Source: Serendipita indica DSM 11827
Lineage: Eukaryota > Basidiomycota > Agaricomycetes > Sebacinales > Serendipitaceae
Reading direction: 5' to 3'
DNA length: 64,000 nucleotides
Assembly: GCA_910890315.1 (NCBI GenBank)
Contig: CAJVGD010000002.1
Span: 1,116,001 to 1,180,000, forward strand
Shown here: piece after piece, positions 21,894 to 30,951 of the stretch
Layout of the letters: every line of letters starts with the position of its first letter
Numbering within the stretch: position 1 is the first letter of the stretch
Made by a program: the position numbers and the translations under genes
The notes under the pieces: model-generated
Seen by the model: the letters and a program-made list of their open reading frames with translations, nothing else
Databases searched by the model: none
What the model was told of the DNA's origin: nothing

Positions 21894-24800
21894 TTATTCC
21901 CACGAGGGACTCGACTTGTACTGCGTCGAGCCGCTGTTGCCCTGTGTAGATCCTTGCGAGGTGTTTCCACTCCATTGCGGAGACGTCGGGCCTACGGTCG
22001 ACTGTCAACACCTACAAAGTAAGACAAACAAACACGTACTGTATTGAGGAGAAGCTGGGGCTGAGGTATCACGTCAGCACATACATCTATAAGACATTTG
22101 AAAGTCTTACAATACTGTGGAGCTGGGTGACGGGGTAATTGTCAGTAAGAGAGCCCTGAAAAGGGTTGATAACGCACATTTTGGAGCATAAGCAGGAGAG
22201 GTAGGAGCTGCATAATATTAAAAATAGGTGGCAAGAACCTCAGAACCAGGAACTCACAATATCTCGGTGAGGCAGGGGACATGCCCGCCGGACGGGCAGG
22301 GGACGTTGGTGAATCTGGATATCAAATCGCGTCAGCGAAATCAGATATTCACATGACTTTCTCACATTGAGGGCTGGTAGGAGAGTAGCGAGGAGACGTG
22401 GGCGCTAATAGTTACTCAGCATCGGGAGTAGAAAGGTAAACAGGGAACCCACAATACTTTGGACTTGTCGGAGAGTACCGGGGGCTAGTTGGCGAATACT
22501 TGGGACTTGTTGGGGAGTAGTGAGGGCTCGTTGGAGAGTAAGTTGGGCTCGTAGGCGAATACCGAGGGCTTGTAGGCGAGTATTTAGGACTAGTGGGCGA
22601 GTATCGAGGTGACGTTGGCGAATACTTGGGACTCGTTGGTGAATACTTAGGGCTTGTAGGGGAGTATACCGGGCTGGTAGGGCTGTACCCAGGACTGGTC
22701 GGCGAATATCTCGGACTGGTTGGGGAATAGCCTGGAGAGGTCATTCCCGGAGAATATGCTGGAGATGTAGCACTGGCACGTGTTCGGTCGAACCAAGGTG
22801 ACTGCTGCATCGGCGAGAATGGTGAGGTCGCACCGGCCATATGATGATATGGAGACATTGCTGTAATGTTCGGGGAGGTAGGGGAATAATGTCTCGGCGA
22901 GGAAGGGCTATATCCGTGTGGCGACATTCCCCCCGAGGCCGGACGCATTGGACTCGGCGCATAGCCTTGCCAATCAAATGACGGTGCGTCATCTGTACCA
23001 TTCATATGTAATGGAGAGAAGGCTGCTTGGTGGTCGACCTTCAATTCGTACGGCATCGGGGAGTTGTTGTCGTACGGTGTCATGACACCGCCCGGAGTTG
23101 CCGCGCCGTCCATTACAGAGCCCATCATGTGTGGTATCGGCACGGTTGATTCTACCATTACGTCCTTTAACATCTCCATATCCAAGGCCACGTCAAATGA
23201 CCCTGTGCCCATGGGAGCAATTTGGCCGAACATGACATTCTCGGCAATGCCGCGACAATCGTCCTTCTCTCCGAGAGACGCAGCGTCCATTAGAATTTCA
23301 ACTGTTTCCTCGAACGAGCACCTCATGAGCGCCCCAGTATCGGCTCTGTTGATACCGTGTCTGGTAATTGCTGTGAGGTTACCCTTATTCGTCATCAAGT
23401 CCACAAGAATCGCGAGATGTCGGTAGTTGACGTAGGATCCGTCAAATTCGATGACTCCTCGCAGCTCGCGCAGGAGCGAGGCCCGTGCAGCTTCAATACC
23501 AAGCACGCTGAAGATTTCCGTGCAACTATTCGATGTCGTCCTACGGAAGTCGACACCGTCGACAGCCAGAACCTTCTTCAAATTGACACCATCTGTCTCC
23601 AGCACCCACTCACGCTCCGCATCCGTCAGTGCCTTGTTTTGCAAAGTGCCGTCCGGCCGCGTGATGACTTTGTCCTTCTTGACCAAGAATACACGATCAA
23701 CCCCGGGTACACCACGAAGATCGACGGTATTGAGGAGTGTGACCTCCAGTTGACGAAGGAAGAGGTCGTCCGAGAAATCGCTCATCGCTTCCATCTTTTC
23801 TGGGGTATGCACGATACGGCAGCGAATGATCAGTTTCTCAGAATTGTCTTCACTCCAAATGATGAAAAGATCAGACGTGAACTTTTCACCGATCTTCGAC
23901 GCAACGTAGGCCATTTCAAGCTTGCGATCCAACATCTTCGACCGGTCAAGCTCCAGACGAAGCACCCAAGGCGAAAGGACATGAAGCTTCGCCTCAATCT
24001 CTGGATCGGGAATGGCAAAGAAGGCGTCGACGAAGTCCTTATCCTCCTCGATGACCGTCGTAGTTGGCTCGGGGTCGTAGTGGATCTCGACAGTCGAGGT
24101 AATGGTGCGAAGTGTTGTGAATGCGAGTTCCGTTTGGACGGCCTTGGCAAGCACACCAGTCTCCTCACGAGCGATTTCATCTTGAAGGTATACAGTCAGA
24201 ATTGGCGTCTTGATATTGGTCGCGACGTTGATGATCTCCTTGAGGCGAGGGACACCAAGTGTGACGTTCTTGCTTGATACACCAGCATAATGGAAGGTAT
24301 CTACTCGAGTCAGCCTTTGTGTTCTACAATGCTAAGAGGCAAGACTTACTGAGCGTCATCTGGGTGGCCGGCTCACCAATAGATTGAGCGGCTAGGGTAC
24401 CACACATCTCACCTGGCTGAACCAGGGATTGATTGAATCGAGTCTCGATTTCTCCTAGAACCCACTCAAAGGCTTGCTTCGTGAGATGGTACTCCTCTAA
24501 AACCGGCTTGGTGGCAAACGTGGCGCGAAGGTGCATCTTGAACATCATCGTGGCATTGTTTTGGGCCTCTAAACTCAGTTCATCATCGCCACGAACGACG
24601 ATTAAGCGACTCATAAGCTCTCGAAGCTTGTCGTAGATTTCTCCCGGATGAAGATCGCTGGCTTCGCGTCGATCGATGTGGAAAATTTGTTGCGCGTTCT
24701 GGATGACACGACGAACGTTGACTGGCATGTAGCGGTCGGCTCCGGGATCCGAGTATCTGAAAATGAACTCGCGTAGCAGTTTTCTGTCTCGTCGCAGCTC

Positions 24801-27800
24801 CTCCCACTCCGCATCGAGCTTCATTTGCAGCTCCAAGGAGTGGTCCTCGAGCCCAGGCTGAAGCACACCATGAGCAAAGCCAAGCTTCGGGTCGGTGACG
24901 TCCACTCGATATTTCCTTTCGAATGCCTGATTGGAGAGGTGGTATGTAGCCACGCTTTGACGTTCGATGAATCCACCGTCGATACCATCCTCTCCGTAGG
25001 TGAACTGGAGAATATCACCTAGCGAGTTTCGCACAGTGCCATCATAGCAAACCATGACATCCTCCAGGGCCTTAACCAGTCGTCGCTGGATATAACCAGT
25101 CTCTGCTGTTTTGATAGCTGTATCGATCAACCCTTCGCGACCAGCCATGGCATGGAAGAAGAATTCAGACGGTGTCAGACCCCTGAGGTATGAGTTCTCA
25201 ACGAAACCTCTGGATTCTGGACTGAAGTCGTCCTTTGTGAAGTGCGGCAGCGAACGATGCCGGAAGCCGAATGGAATACGCTTGCCCTCCACGCTTTGCT
25301 GACCCACCGCGACGGACATCTGTGCGATGTTGATAAAAGAGCCTTTCGACCCAGCGACGACCATCTGCTTGACGTTGTTGCTATCCTTCAGACTCTCCTG
25401 CGCCATTTTTCCGGCGGTGTCGCGGGCCTTGTTGAGGTGCATATTGACATGACTCTCAAATGACTCTCGAATCGTCATGCCAGGTTCCGCTTTGAGTCGA
25501 TCGTTGCTCGCGTCTTCGATGAGCTTTTGCACCTTTTGCTTGGCGGACAGAATGGCTTCCGAGACTCCTTGCATGGTTTGGTTATCAGCAATAGTGTCGC
25601 CGATACCGATGCTGAAGCCATTGTGGAAGAGCCAAAAGTTCACGATCATCTGAAGGCCAGAAAAGAGATCGCGACAGATTTCTGGGCCTTTTTCTCGGAA
25701 GACGACGTGAACGAGACCGCCTTGAGTGGCGCCAACCGTCTTCTTGTCAACAACTCCAAAGATGATCTCGCCATTTTCGATCATCATGCCATCATCCGCA
25801 GGAGGGTTATGACTTCGAGACTCTGGGAGCCTAAGTACGTTGATCCCTCGCGGGATACACATGCTCAATAGCTGCTTCCCGGTCCAAAGCGGCTTCGGCT
25901 TGAGGATAGTGGGTGTCGGAACGATACCGTCCCAGCCGGGAAGCCAAAGCAGGAGGTTCTGAACTTGGATCCAGTCGACAAAAGTATCGCGAAGCGTGAA
26001 CTTTCTGATACCGCATAGAGTATCCTGGACGATACCCATGACGGGTTTGTTGGCTTGTGGGGAGACAATCTGCCGAGGAACCCAAGCGATTTGGCTGAGC
26101 TCCGCTCTCGTCTCTTCGCTCTGCGGGACGCTGGCGGATCGCTTAGACAATACTTTCCATGGCAGAAAGGACGTATACGTACTGCAAATTCATTTCGTCT
26201 CCATCGAAATCGGCGTTGTAGGGAGGGGTCCTAGAGTCAGGTCAGCAGGGGTCCTGCAACAAATCTTGCACGACGTACACAGAGAGATTCAATCGGAAGG
26301 TCGAGTACGGCATAATCTTGACACGATGAGACATCATGCTCATCTTGTGTAGACTGGGCTGACGATTGAAGAGAACGTAGTCACCATCCTTCAAATGTCG
26401 CTCCACTATCCATCCAAACTGGAGGAGCGAGTCGCTTCGTTTATTGTACTTGAGATCGATACGCTCTCCGGTGTCGCGAATCACGTAACGTGCACCAGGG
26501 TATTCCTGTGGACCTCTCCGAACCAGTTCGGTGAGATACTGAATGTTGTAGCGCGTCACTAGGGCATATGATCAGCAAAGTGGCTCCACTTCAAGTAGCA
26601 ACGTACCCCTCTCTGGGTAGGTCAGTGTCATAGCAATGCTTCGCGGTACACCAACTTGATCCAGTTGGAGATTGGGATCTCCAGTGATGACCGTGCGCGC
26701 GGAGAAATCGACACGCTTTCCCATCAAATTGCCTCTTAGCCGTCCTTCCTTCCCCTTTAATCGAGCACGAATGGCCTTGATTGGTCGACCAGACTTTTGC
26801 ATTGCCTGCGGGACACCAGCGATATCGTTGTCCATATACGTCGCAACATGGTATTGCAGCAGCTGCTCGTACTCCGAGACTATGTGCGGGGGTGCACCTT
26901 CTTGCTCGCTGCGACGTACATTGCCACTCGCACGAATTATTTCGGCGAGTTTGTAGGTCAGGTCGTCTTCACTCCGCCGAACCCCGCCGTCAACCGAGAT
27001 TGAAGGTCGAACTGGCGGAGGTGGCACAGGGAGTACCGTCAGGATCATCCAATCTGGTCTTGCATAAGCTTCGGAGAGACCAAGCATCTCAAGATCAGTT
27101 GTGGAGATCTTGCGGAAGACACTGAATACGTCTTGGGCAGACACCTGGCGCTTCTCTTGCACGGTTGGACGGGATTCCTGTTTCCGTTAACAAAACGAGA
27201 TTTTGTGGCCAGGTCATTCTACCAACCTCATCGTCATTCTGCTTCTTGTAATTGAAGAACAACTTTAGGCCCTCCTTGCGAATCTGAGGTTGGTGATGGC
27301 CACAGCCTCCATGCCCTTTCTTGACCTCGACTGGCGGGCCTCCCTCCTGTTCGTCTTCCTTGACCTCATCGGGCTCACAAGTCATCTTGCCTTTACAGAC
27401 ACTCCACACAACAGCCATGCGTGCTTTGGGGTTGTTGCGTGTGAGTTTCAGTTTACTCGCAAGTTGCGGATCGGTGTACTAAATCCATTGAGAACGACAT
27501 GCAAATCATTGGTCAGCGATCCGATAAATATTTGAAACCGCCGTAGATCAGTGATAGGAAACAGATGACACTCGTTGAGATGGGCATGCAAAAGCTTCAC
27601 AGAGCTCCGACAGAGCCGTACGATGCGAGCGATCTGACAGAACTGAGAGACCGCCTCGATGCCTTTGAGTCTCGCCCAACCCTCCTTTTCACCACGCGGC
27701 CAAGCGCCCCCGAAAAAGCTCTTGCAAGGATCTACAGATGGCACGAGGGCCACCTCGGATCGAGCTACGGAGACGACCCGGTAAACCGCGGGTTCGGGGT

Positions 27801-28347
27801 TTCTCACTCGGAGAGTGAAAAGAGCCCCCAGAAAGTGTATAAGGAGTGTCATGGGAACACTCACGGGATCGACTTTCAGCTTTCCACAGTTGACACAAAT
27901 GGACTCCAAGATCTTCTTGACTTTGCCCAAGAAACCTGAACGTTGGTATCAGCCAACCGCAAAAGGAGAAGTATGATGAGTATACCTATGTGAAAGACTG
28001 GACGAGCGAGCTCAATGTGACCGAAATGCCCTGGGCACTCTGCCATACCCTCGCCACAAGTCGCACATTTGAAGTTACGGTCTATTGTCCCCATTCTTGG
28101 ATCAGCCAGACCACCTTCTTTTTGCTTTTGTTGTTCGTCCATGACTTCTGGAAACTCGATCTTTGCGACCGAGTACGCTTTCTAAAAGTTTGAGTCAGCC
28201 GCCGTGCAAGCGCCGAACAACCAAAAAGGCCTGATAAAATGCAGGGATAGACGGACTCACGATTTCATCTGGGGAAAGGATTCCAAACTGAACTTCTTTG
28301 ATCTGGCGTATGGGAGCTACAGACTGAGCGAACTGGTGACCAAGCAT
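21894..28347 (-). CDS. RPB1: DNA-directed RNA polymerase II largest subunit, Rpb1
   Basis: The catalytic core subunit of RNA polymerase II, about 1,800 residues. The start is [20 protein letters not shown] at 28347. The clamp zinc site reads [19 protein letters not shown]. The region [18 protein letters not shown], the [13 protein letters not shown] segment and [20 protein letters not shown] are standard Rpb1 blocks. The C-terminal domain (CTD) begins as degenerate heptads, then has about 13 consecutive YSPTSPx heptads in one exon (22740 down to 22453). The end of the CTD is split by six introns of 48-55 nt, all placed just after a Tyr codon. Exons there are 39, 57, 30, 12 and 21 nt, then a last one of 98 nt ending KSSPSWE. 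The VPS27 gene is divergent, 332 nt away. Confidence 0.96.
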
Positions 28348-28679: not shown

Positions 28680-30951
28680 ATGACTTCTTGGATATGGGGT
28701 TCATCCCAATTTGACGAGCAAGTCGGTGCGTACGACGTAGGAATCCACTCTGGAGCGCGCGCTGACGTCGCAAGCAGACAAGGCCACGTCTGAACTGCTG
28801 CCTACTGATCAGGAGGACATCGCATTAAATCTCGAAATATGTGATCAGATTAAATCAAAGGATGTCCAACCAAAGGATGCCATGCGGGCTCTCAAACGAC
28901 GGCTTAATCACAAGAATCCCAACGTTCAGCTGCTAGCGCTTACAGTGAGGACTCGCCTTACGTCAACTCGCTCTCATACTGACCTCCTTTACAGCTCACA
29001 GACGTCTGTGTGAAGAATGGAGGCAACCATTTTCTTGTGGAGGTCTCCTCGAGAGAATTTATGGATAATATGGTCTCCATTCTCAAAATTCCGGTATGGC
29101 GAGAGCGCTTGCTCACATATCCTACATCTCACATTGTCACAGGCTCTGAATAATGATGTGAAGAATCGGATGCTGCGCTTCATCCAAAACTGGGCCATGG
29201 CATTCGAAGGGAAGCCAGAATTCGCATACGTGAACACAGTCTACAAGACATTGGTTTCAGAAGGTGGTTTAAATCATTTCTACTCTAATGTTTGGACTCA
29301 CAAAAGATCCAGGGTTCAAATTCCCACCCAAGGATCTCATCAACGCAAACAACGCCATGACTGACACCGCGATTGCTCCAGAGTGGATTGATTCAGACGT
29401 TTGTCTTCGCTGTCGCGACCCATTCACTTTCACCAACCGGAAGCATCATTGTCGGAACTGTGGCCTAGTTTTTGACCAGAAATGCTCGTCCAAGTCCCTT
29501 CCACTTCCTCATTTTGGTATCACTCAAGATGTTCGAGTGTGTGACTCGTGTCACTTCAAGCTTACGCGCAAAAAGGAACAGGCTGCCAAAGAGGCAGAGG
29601 ACGCAAAGAAGAAGCAGCAACAGCAGCAACGCAGCGAGCATTCATCTCATATCGATTATGATCTCGCGCGTGCAATCGAACTTTCACTGAAAGAGTCGCA
29701 AGGCAGCACCAGTGGTCGGGCGGGATACGCTCCTTTGAGCGATGTCCCAAAGCAGTGGCATGCATCCGAGCCACCACTCGTGGACCGTTCGACAGCCAAA
29801 GGAGAAGAAGAAGACGAGGAACTTCGCGCTGCAATTGAAGCCAGTCTTCGGGAGTCGCGTGCTCCGCAACCTAGCGCACCCGTCGAGGAGCCGACTCATC
29901 AGACATACGAGTCTCCGGTTGCTACCGTTCCATCATACGACCTGGCTCCACTCGAATCCGACGCCATCATGTCGTTCAATCAAACAGTTGCGGATGCTCA
30001 GACATACGGTATGCAGGATATGAGGCGTACGCACGAGTTGTACAGTCGAGCCGCGTCGTATCAGCCTAAGTTGACGCGGAGTCTGGATGACACACAACGG
30101 AAAGAGCGTAGGTCACGGTGGCTTTCTTTCTTGATAAGCAATTGACGCACCTCCCAGAGATATTGTCAGATATGCATGATAAACTCTCCCAGGCCGTCAA
30201 ACTCTACGATAATCTTCTCACCGAGCAATTCTCTGCCCGAAGACAAGCGACACCGACCCAGTCGTCATATGCTCAGTATTCTGCGTATAATCAACAGCAA
30301 CAATGGGCACCATCAGCACCATATTCTGCTGGTTATACGCCAGCACCAATGAATAATGTGCCGGTCCCTGATCAGAGGTGGGTGACCCCAGCACCAACTG
30401 CAATACCCCAACAATATAGTACACAACAAGTTGTACCTTCATCTCCGCCTCAGCATACGCATACGCAACCAGTATCCGCACCTCCTCAGATGAACCAATT
30501 CCAAATGCAGCAGCAAGAATATGGAACGACGCTTCCTCCTGTCACATTACCACAATTTTCCACTCCTCAGCCTCCTGTGGCTGTATCGCCCGCACCTGCA
30601 CCTGCACCTATCCCTACACCCGCGCCGGTGCCATCTCAGCCACAACCAGCCTTGTCGCGCCATAATACTGTTCAGAGCTACCATCCTCATGCAGCGCAGG
30701 TTCATCGCTCGAACACGGTTGCATCCTCTCCGTATCAAGCTCAACAACCTCAGGTACAATACACGCCGCAACCCCTCGCACATCAGGTACCGCACCAACA
30801 AGCGACGCCAGCTCCGCTTCCAGTGATGCCCACTGCTCCAACAAATGCACCTTCGTCGTATTCGCTGTTTGCGCAGCCGACTACGCTCCCTTCGATCCCA
30901 GCGGCGCCGAAGGCGGAGCCCAAGGAAGCAATGTTGATCTCGTTTGACTGA
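28680..30951 (+). CDS. VPS27: ESCRT-0 subunit Vps27 (VHS-FYVE-UIM)
   Basis: Sorts ubiquitinated membrane proteins at endosomes. The first exons encode a VHS domain: [20 protein letters not shown], then [20 protein letters not shown] and [17 protein letters not shown]. The FYVE zinc finger has [20 protein letters not shown] with [13 protein letters not shown]. Two ubiquitin-interacting motifs follow: [15 protein letters not shown] and [15 protein letters not shown]. After the GAT-like segment ([20 protein letters not shown]), the rest is Gln/Pro/Ala-rich. The protein ends in EAMLISFD, a plausible clathrin-box-like terminus. An intron near 30106 joins QRKE to QILSDMHD. It is convergent with proline dehydrogenase, with 145 nt between the stops. 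Confidence 0.95.

Follow-up and report, generated by a model that had tools for sequence, protein, structure and literature searches.

In Serendipita indica DSM 11827, the distal CTD of RPB1 is encoded in a series of small exons separated by six introns, all in phase 1, four of which (introns 1, 3, 5 and 6, numbered in the direction of transcription) enter the protein repeat at the same place, between bases 1 and 2 of the codon for the Ser2 immediately after Tyr1. This gene structure is real and somewhat unusual. Our preferred reading, to which we give a probability of about 0.45, is that the introns owe their register to old duplications of heptads, that the intron sequences have since been randomised and that these are ordinary spliceosomal introns, constitutively removed. 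If the register does reflect duplication of heptad plus intron, the CTD is a place where the growth of a repeat can be followed alongside the multiplication of introns, its history being marked separately by the position of introns and by the class of serine codon.

On sequence grounds, the interrupted gene is RPB1, the largest subunit of RNA polymerase II. It lies complete on the minus strand (21894-28347) of the window, by which we mean the whole 64,000-nucleotide stretch analysed, with its ATG at 28347 and its stop at 21896-21894; the spliced model has 15 exons, 14 introns and a 5391-nt coding sequence for 1796 amino acids, with no internal stops. A 615-aa stretch of the protein matched a solved RPB1 chain (phmmer, E=1.2e-273), and Pfam placed Rpb1 domains 3, 4, 5, 6 and 7, in that order, together with the CTD heptad repeats (PF05001, E=1.2e-25), on the two exon stretches scanned, both downstream of the N-terminal part. 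The CTD stretch that we counted holds 20 Tyr and 41 Ser-Pro in 151 residues. Searches of the 24.7-Mb genome with the 3′ DNA of the gene or with the CTD repeat revealed no RPB1 paralogue. PF04998 had six further matches in the genome, on contig C5.

Two features of the surrounding region deserve mention in their own right. Body intron 3 is 386 nt long (27864-27479, minus strand), the other 13 introns measuring 48-79 nt, and the upstream reading frame crosses its entire length without a stop (27948-27451, 166 codons). It had no match in Pfam or Rfam, a genome search with it returned only itself, and no RNA family passed the gathering threshold anywhere in the window. Head to head with RPB1 lies a predicted gene on the plus strand (28680-30951), its predicted ATG separated from that of RPB1 by about 330 nt; the protein has a VHS- and FYVE-like look (Vps27/HRS-like).

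The proximal part of the CTD, a run of 13 regular YSPTSPx heptads (22457-22729, minus strand, as for all CTD features below), is intron-free and forms the end of the 1848-nt exon 9. The spliced model then bears out the six introns at the coordinates that the initial annotation had given, each with GT..AG ends and, as it had also claimed, each in phase 1. Intron 1 (22405-22452, 48 nt) splits a Ser2 codon as T^CG, the caret marking the intron, and has the weakest splice signals of the six; beyond it lies the 39-nt exon 10 (22366-22404), which has 13 residues and split codons at both ends. Intron 2 (22315-22365, 51 nt) splits a Tyr1 codon behind its first base, as had been stated, and leads into the 57-nt exon 11 (22258-22314, 19 residues). 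Intron 3 (22208-22257, 50 nt), in a Ser2 codon (T^CT), precedes the 30-nt exon 12 (22178-22207, 10 residues), after which intron 4 (22123-22177, 55 nt) falls in a Ser5 codon that follows Lys (AAA T^CT). Intron 4 had been counted among five introns lying directly after a Tyr codon, a description that fits only introns 1, 3, 5 and 6. Exon 13 is a 12-nt microexon (22111-22122) encoding SPQY, and intron 5 (22061-22110, 50 nt) again splits a Ser2 codon (T^CC). Exon 14 (22040-22060, 21 nt, SPASPQY) is exactly one heptad long; intron 6 (21992-22039, 48 nt) lies in a Ser2 codon of the other type (A^GC), and exon 15 (21894-21991) closes the protein with SPTSPQW and a non-heptad tail of 25 residues.

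The five internal exons have the lengths originally reported, all multiples of three, and we computed that each can indeed be dropped without loss of frame. That neutrality follows automatically from the shared intron phase and is no evidence of regulation. The introns themselves are 48-55 nt long against a genome median of 49 nt; branch-point-like motifs are present in them, weak in introns 1 and 3, and intron 3 has no in-frame stop inside. Most likely, these are ordinary small spliceosomal introns, sitting in a distal part of the CTD that is degenerate, and they would be removed constitutively.

How firm the individual junctions are can be judged from a purpose-built gene finder trained on 264 kb of this genome, whose splice matrices were seeded from eight RPB1 body introns, with the CTD introns excluded, and whose coding and intron-length tables include the CTD introns. 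With the true stop fixed, it returned introns 1, 2, 4 and 5 exactly, and with them the two boundaries of the 12-nt exon; it read through intron 3 and placed the donor of intron 6 off by 4 nt, so intron 3 and the exact donor of intron 6 rest on the continuity of the heptads. Left unconstrained, it placed just the first two CTD introns exactly before reaching a false stop, and it started the gene too late, at 27385, thereby missing the first three body introns. That a gene finder, left free, misses the true C-terminus together with CTD introns 3 to 6 suggests that the distal CTD is open to mis-annotation in such fungi.

For comparison, we used the 31 of 75 predicted genes that passed the score cut, a set that includes RPB1 itself with two CTD introns and that supplies 107 introns outside the CTD, at about 1.7 introns per kb. 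Ranked against these 107, CTD introns 1 to 6 have splice scores at percentiles 0, 27, 7, 39, 6 and 39, and, net of the model's intron cost, the splice-signal scores are negative for five of the six. The CTD introns score below background overall (Mann-Whitney P=0.01); the intronic signals alone, with the exonic flanks left out, do not differ significantly (P=0.28), so the lower scores stem from the exonic bases. On that same result, the idea that weak splice sites point to regulation was considered and set aside as unsupported. That at least one of the six introns is spliced otherwise, with the 12-nt exon unused for instance, is in our judgement the least probable of the alternatives. The gene finder's lapses speak for such an error, as do the net scores and the score of intron 1, which lies under all 107; against it, the spliced reading passes through all six junctions as unbroken CTD-like sequence, and the parse with the 12-nt exon scores -4.8 against -6.3 for a single 117-nt intron in a comparison that omits the coding term, the gene finder likewise picking the 12-nt exon.

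Several measures set the array apart from its genomic background. Six of the 14 RPB1 introns fall within 159 nt of the coding sequence (P=3.5e-4 under uniform placement), whereas the most introns seen in 160 nt of coding sequence in the background is three, in 2 of 31 genes, a maximum that is a lower bound because very short exons often escape the gene finder. Background introns are spread over phases 0, 1 and 2 as 39, 37 and 31 (n=107), which puts the probability that six introns share a phase at 4.7e-3, and that they share phase 1 at 1.7e-3. The chance that at least four of six introns lie at Ser2 in phase 1 is 4e-5 under uniform placement in the CTD and 5e-7 when placement is weighted by this genome's exonic splice preferences; the clustering and register tests are post hoc, and a correction of about 21-fold for the choice of heptad position is fair and leaves P small. 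The exonic flanks are odd as well: T^C borders four of the six CTD introns (1, 3, 4 and 5) and 1 of the 107 background introns (Fisher 1.1e-5), and T stands at -1 of the donor in five of six compared with 10 of 107 (1.2e-4), the commonest background flanks being G^G (22 of 107) and G^A (18). Introns occur in the CTD-coding regions of animals and plants. In a literature search on RPB1 and CTD introns, which scarcely covered subscription journals, no title or abstract among the matches listed describes heptad-phased introns.

Together, the register and the off-consensus flanks favour either copying of heptad plus intron or a site preference specific to the CTD over ordinary gain at proto-splice sites. 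The shared T^C flank leans towards copying, as would be expected if an odd site had been copied and not regained each time at the consensus. The initial annotation had offered both duplication of a heptad-plus-intron unit and gain favouring one site; its observation is partly confirmed and its interpretation partly supported, in that the register is beyond chance and the flanks are off consensus, whereas a likeness among the introns is not detectable. Pairwise comparison of the six, which it had put forward as a check, gave no excess similarity: scored against 3403 pairs from 83 background introns of 44-58 nt in the same genome, the 15 CTD pairs have a mean with P=0.34. The most alike pair, introns 5 and 6, flanks the heptad-long exon 14 and reaches P=0.0115 taken singly and 0.158 as the best of 15, and in a shuffle test P fell below 0.05 for 1 of 15 CTD pairs and 2 of 21 body pairs. 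Measured against what internal duplication should leave behind, the phase is the same in six of six introns and the place in the heptad in four of six, with two out of register, and similarity of the copied introns was not detectable in the 15 CTD pairs.

Any copying must, given this lack of detectable similarity, be old. Passages in PMC3584928 describe orthologous introns of Basidiomycetes as unalignable even between closely related species, so a loss of intron similarity is what those passages would lead one to expect. Harder to accommodate are intron 6, whose A^GC is at least two substitutions away from a Ser2 unit of the TCN type, and the two introns outside the register, 2 and 4, for which separate origins or shifts would be needed.

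Serine codons offer a further view of how the repeat was built. Among Ser-Pro serines without a preceding Tyr (Ser5-type), 12 of 13 in the proximal part are AGY and 8 of 9 in the distal part are TCN (Fisher 2.4e-4), counted over 22457-22729 and 21992-22456, respectively, with the irregular stretch before 22729 omitted; the switch coincides with CTD intron 1. Because AGY and TCN are more than one substitution apart, the two parts of the CTD appear to have separate repeat histories. Serines in the body of RPB1 are 67% TCN, so what stands out is the AGY array of the proximal part and not the distal TCN codons, and the distal codons are no proof of descent among the intron-bearing heptads. Mean DNA identity between heptads is 0.68 in the proximal part and 0.44 in the distal part, where the units were cut every 21 nt and are out of register; we therefore left these values out of the argument.

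On the duplication reading, an early distal CTD would have carried one or a few introns in a Ser2 codon, and unequal exchange between heptads would have copied heptad and intron several times, yielding introns 1, 3 and 5 and perhaps 6. The intron sequences would then have diverged past recognition while the splice junctions and the heptad coding were kept, and the intron-free proximal array would have grown separately from AGY-type heptads.

A close rival is that introns were gained independently at a favoured heptad site, the Tyr1-Ser2 junction, with no unit copied at all, which we regard as possible if rather doubtful. It sits well with the lack of excess similarity among the introns and with the make-up of the repeat, since Ser2 supplies 15 of the 33 T^C sites in the 16 in-register heptads, more than any other position, and any preference for T^C would favour that register. 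Against it, T^C is not one of the flanks that introns of this genome favour (1 of 107), G^G and G^A sites exist in the heptad DNA and are unused, and identical Ser2 sites (TATT at that site in 8 of the 16 heptads) are available in the proximal heptads, which are intron-free up to intron 1. Alternatively, the introns could be old, each of separate ancient origin and conserved across a fungal lineage, with a register that is partly coincidental and a distal CTD spared repeat turnover. In its favour, introns 2 and 4 stand out of register, the proximal array lacks introns, and intron positions in Agaricomycetes are, according to passages of PMC4524599, conserved enough to mark higher taxa, in contrast to the strain-specific, non-conserved positions of Trichosporonales described there. 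We nevertheless consider this unlikely, as a coincidental register is improbable (4e-5 under uniform placement, post hoc), and so are the T^C flanks (1.1e-5). Our searches for RPB1 relatives returned no fungal RPB1 among the genome contigs, where 15 of 19 matches were confirmed, all archaeal by title; in viral contigs, none of the pattern matches to two RPB1 stretches (19 and 1, respectively) was confirmed, and the nine matches among plasmids were weak and bacterial, six carrying an rpoC annotation.

What the array might do at the level of splicing is a separate matter. Introns of about 50 nt should be recognised across the intron, which makes retention likelier than skipping, and introns of 48-55 nt fit such intron definition. 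By computation, retention of intron 1, 2 or 6 leads to a stop and to proteins of 1724, 1729 or 1775 aa, and with intron 3, 4 or 5 retained, translation would run on beyond the stop in a shifted frame, to 1872-1876 aa. The frames so shifted stay open 3′ of the RPB1 stop (about 21893-21710, minus strand) for about 60 more codons, an estimate from the computed lengths of the retention proteins; their openness is probably chance. RPB1 isoforms made by skipping or retention are a possible outcome of the structure as analysed. That exons 10-14 form a cassette, skipped or with introns retained under regulation to yield different CTD tails, strikes us as very unlikely all the same. Its appeal lies in the five exons that can each be dropped in frame, in the below-background splice scores and in the exon skipping, alternative sites and intron retention that passages of PMC3990503 report for 741 genes of Cryptococcus neoformans. 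Yet the lower scores come from exonic bases, introns of this size lead one to expect retention more than skipping, with the stops and frame shifts just described, and skipping of exon 14 would replace Ser2 with Cys. A combined version, in which repeat expansion copied the intron and the in-phase array is also used to make shorter or different CTD tails by retention or skipping, would judging from the DNA be a long shot; were it true, the RPB1 mRNA would link the transcription machinery and splicing in mutual feedback.

Set beside known systems, the gene shares with other RPB1 genes its homology, its Rpb1 Pfam domains and its YSPTSPx repeats, and differs in a distal CTD split by six introns. 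Copies of an introner-like element are near-identical. Introner-like elements of fungi, described in PMC4457414 as multiplied invasive introns, have in common with the RPB1 CTD the presence of several introns in one short stretch. We considered and rejected an introner-like origin, as the CTD introns are dissimilar and their pair scores are at background level. A genome search with the 871-nt CTD region, by a method that skips simple repeats and very common words, returned only the region itself. Intron-rich genes of Cryptococcus neoformans, whose very small exons PMC3990503 reports, combine them with short introns, as the RPB1 CTD does; in RPB1, by comparison, such exons form a cluster that for the most part keeps register with the protein repeat. 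In collagen-type genes, in-register introns were made by internal duplication. Although the CTD unit is just 7 residues long, with two of six introns out of register and no intron similarity left, it is with such repeat genes that the RPB1 CTD shares intron phase and, for four of six introns, the place within the repeat unit.
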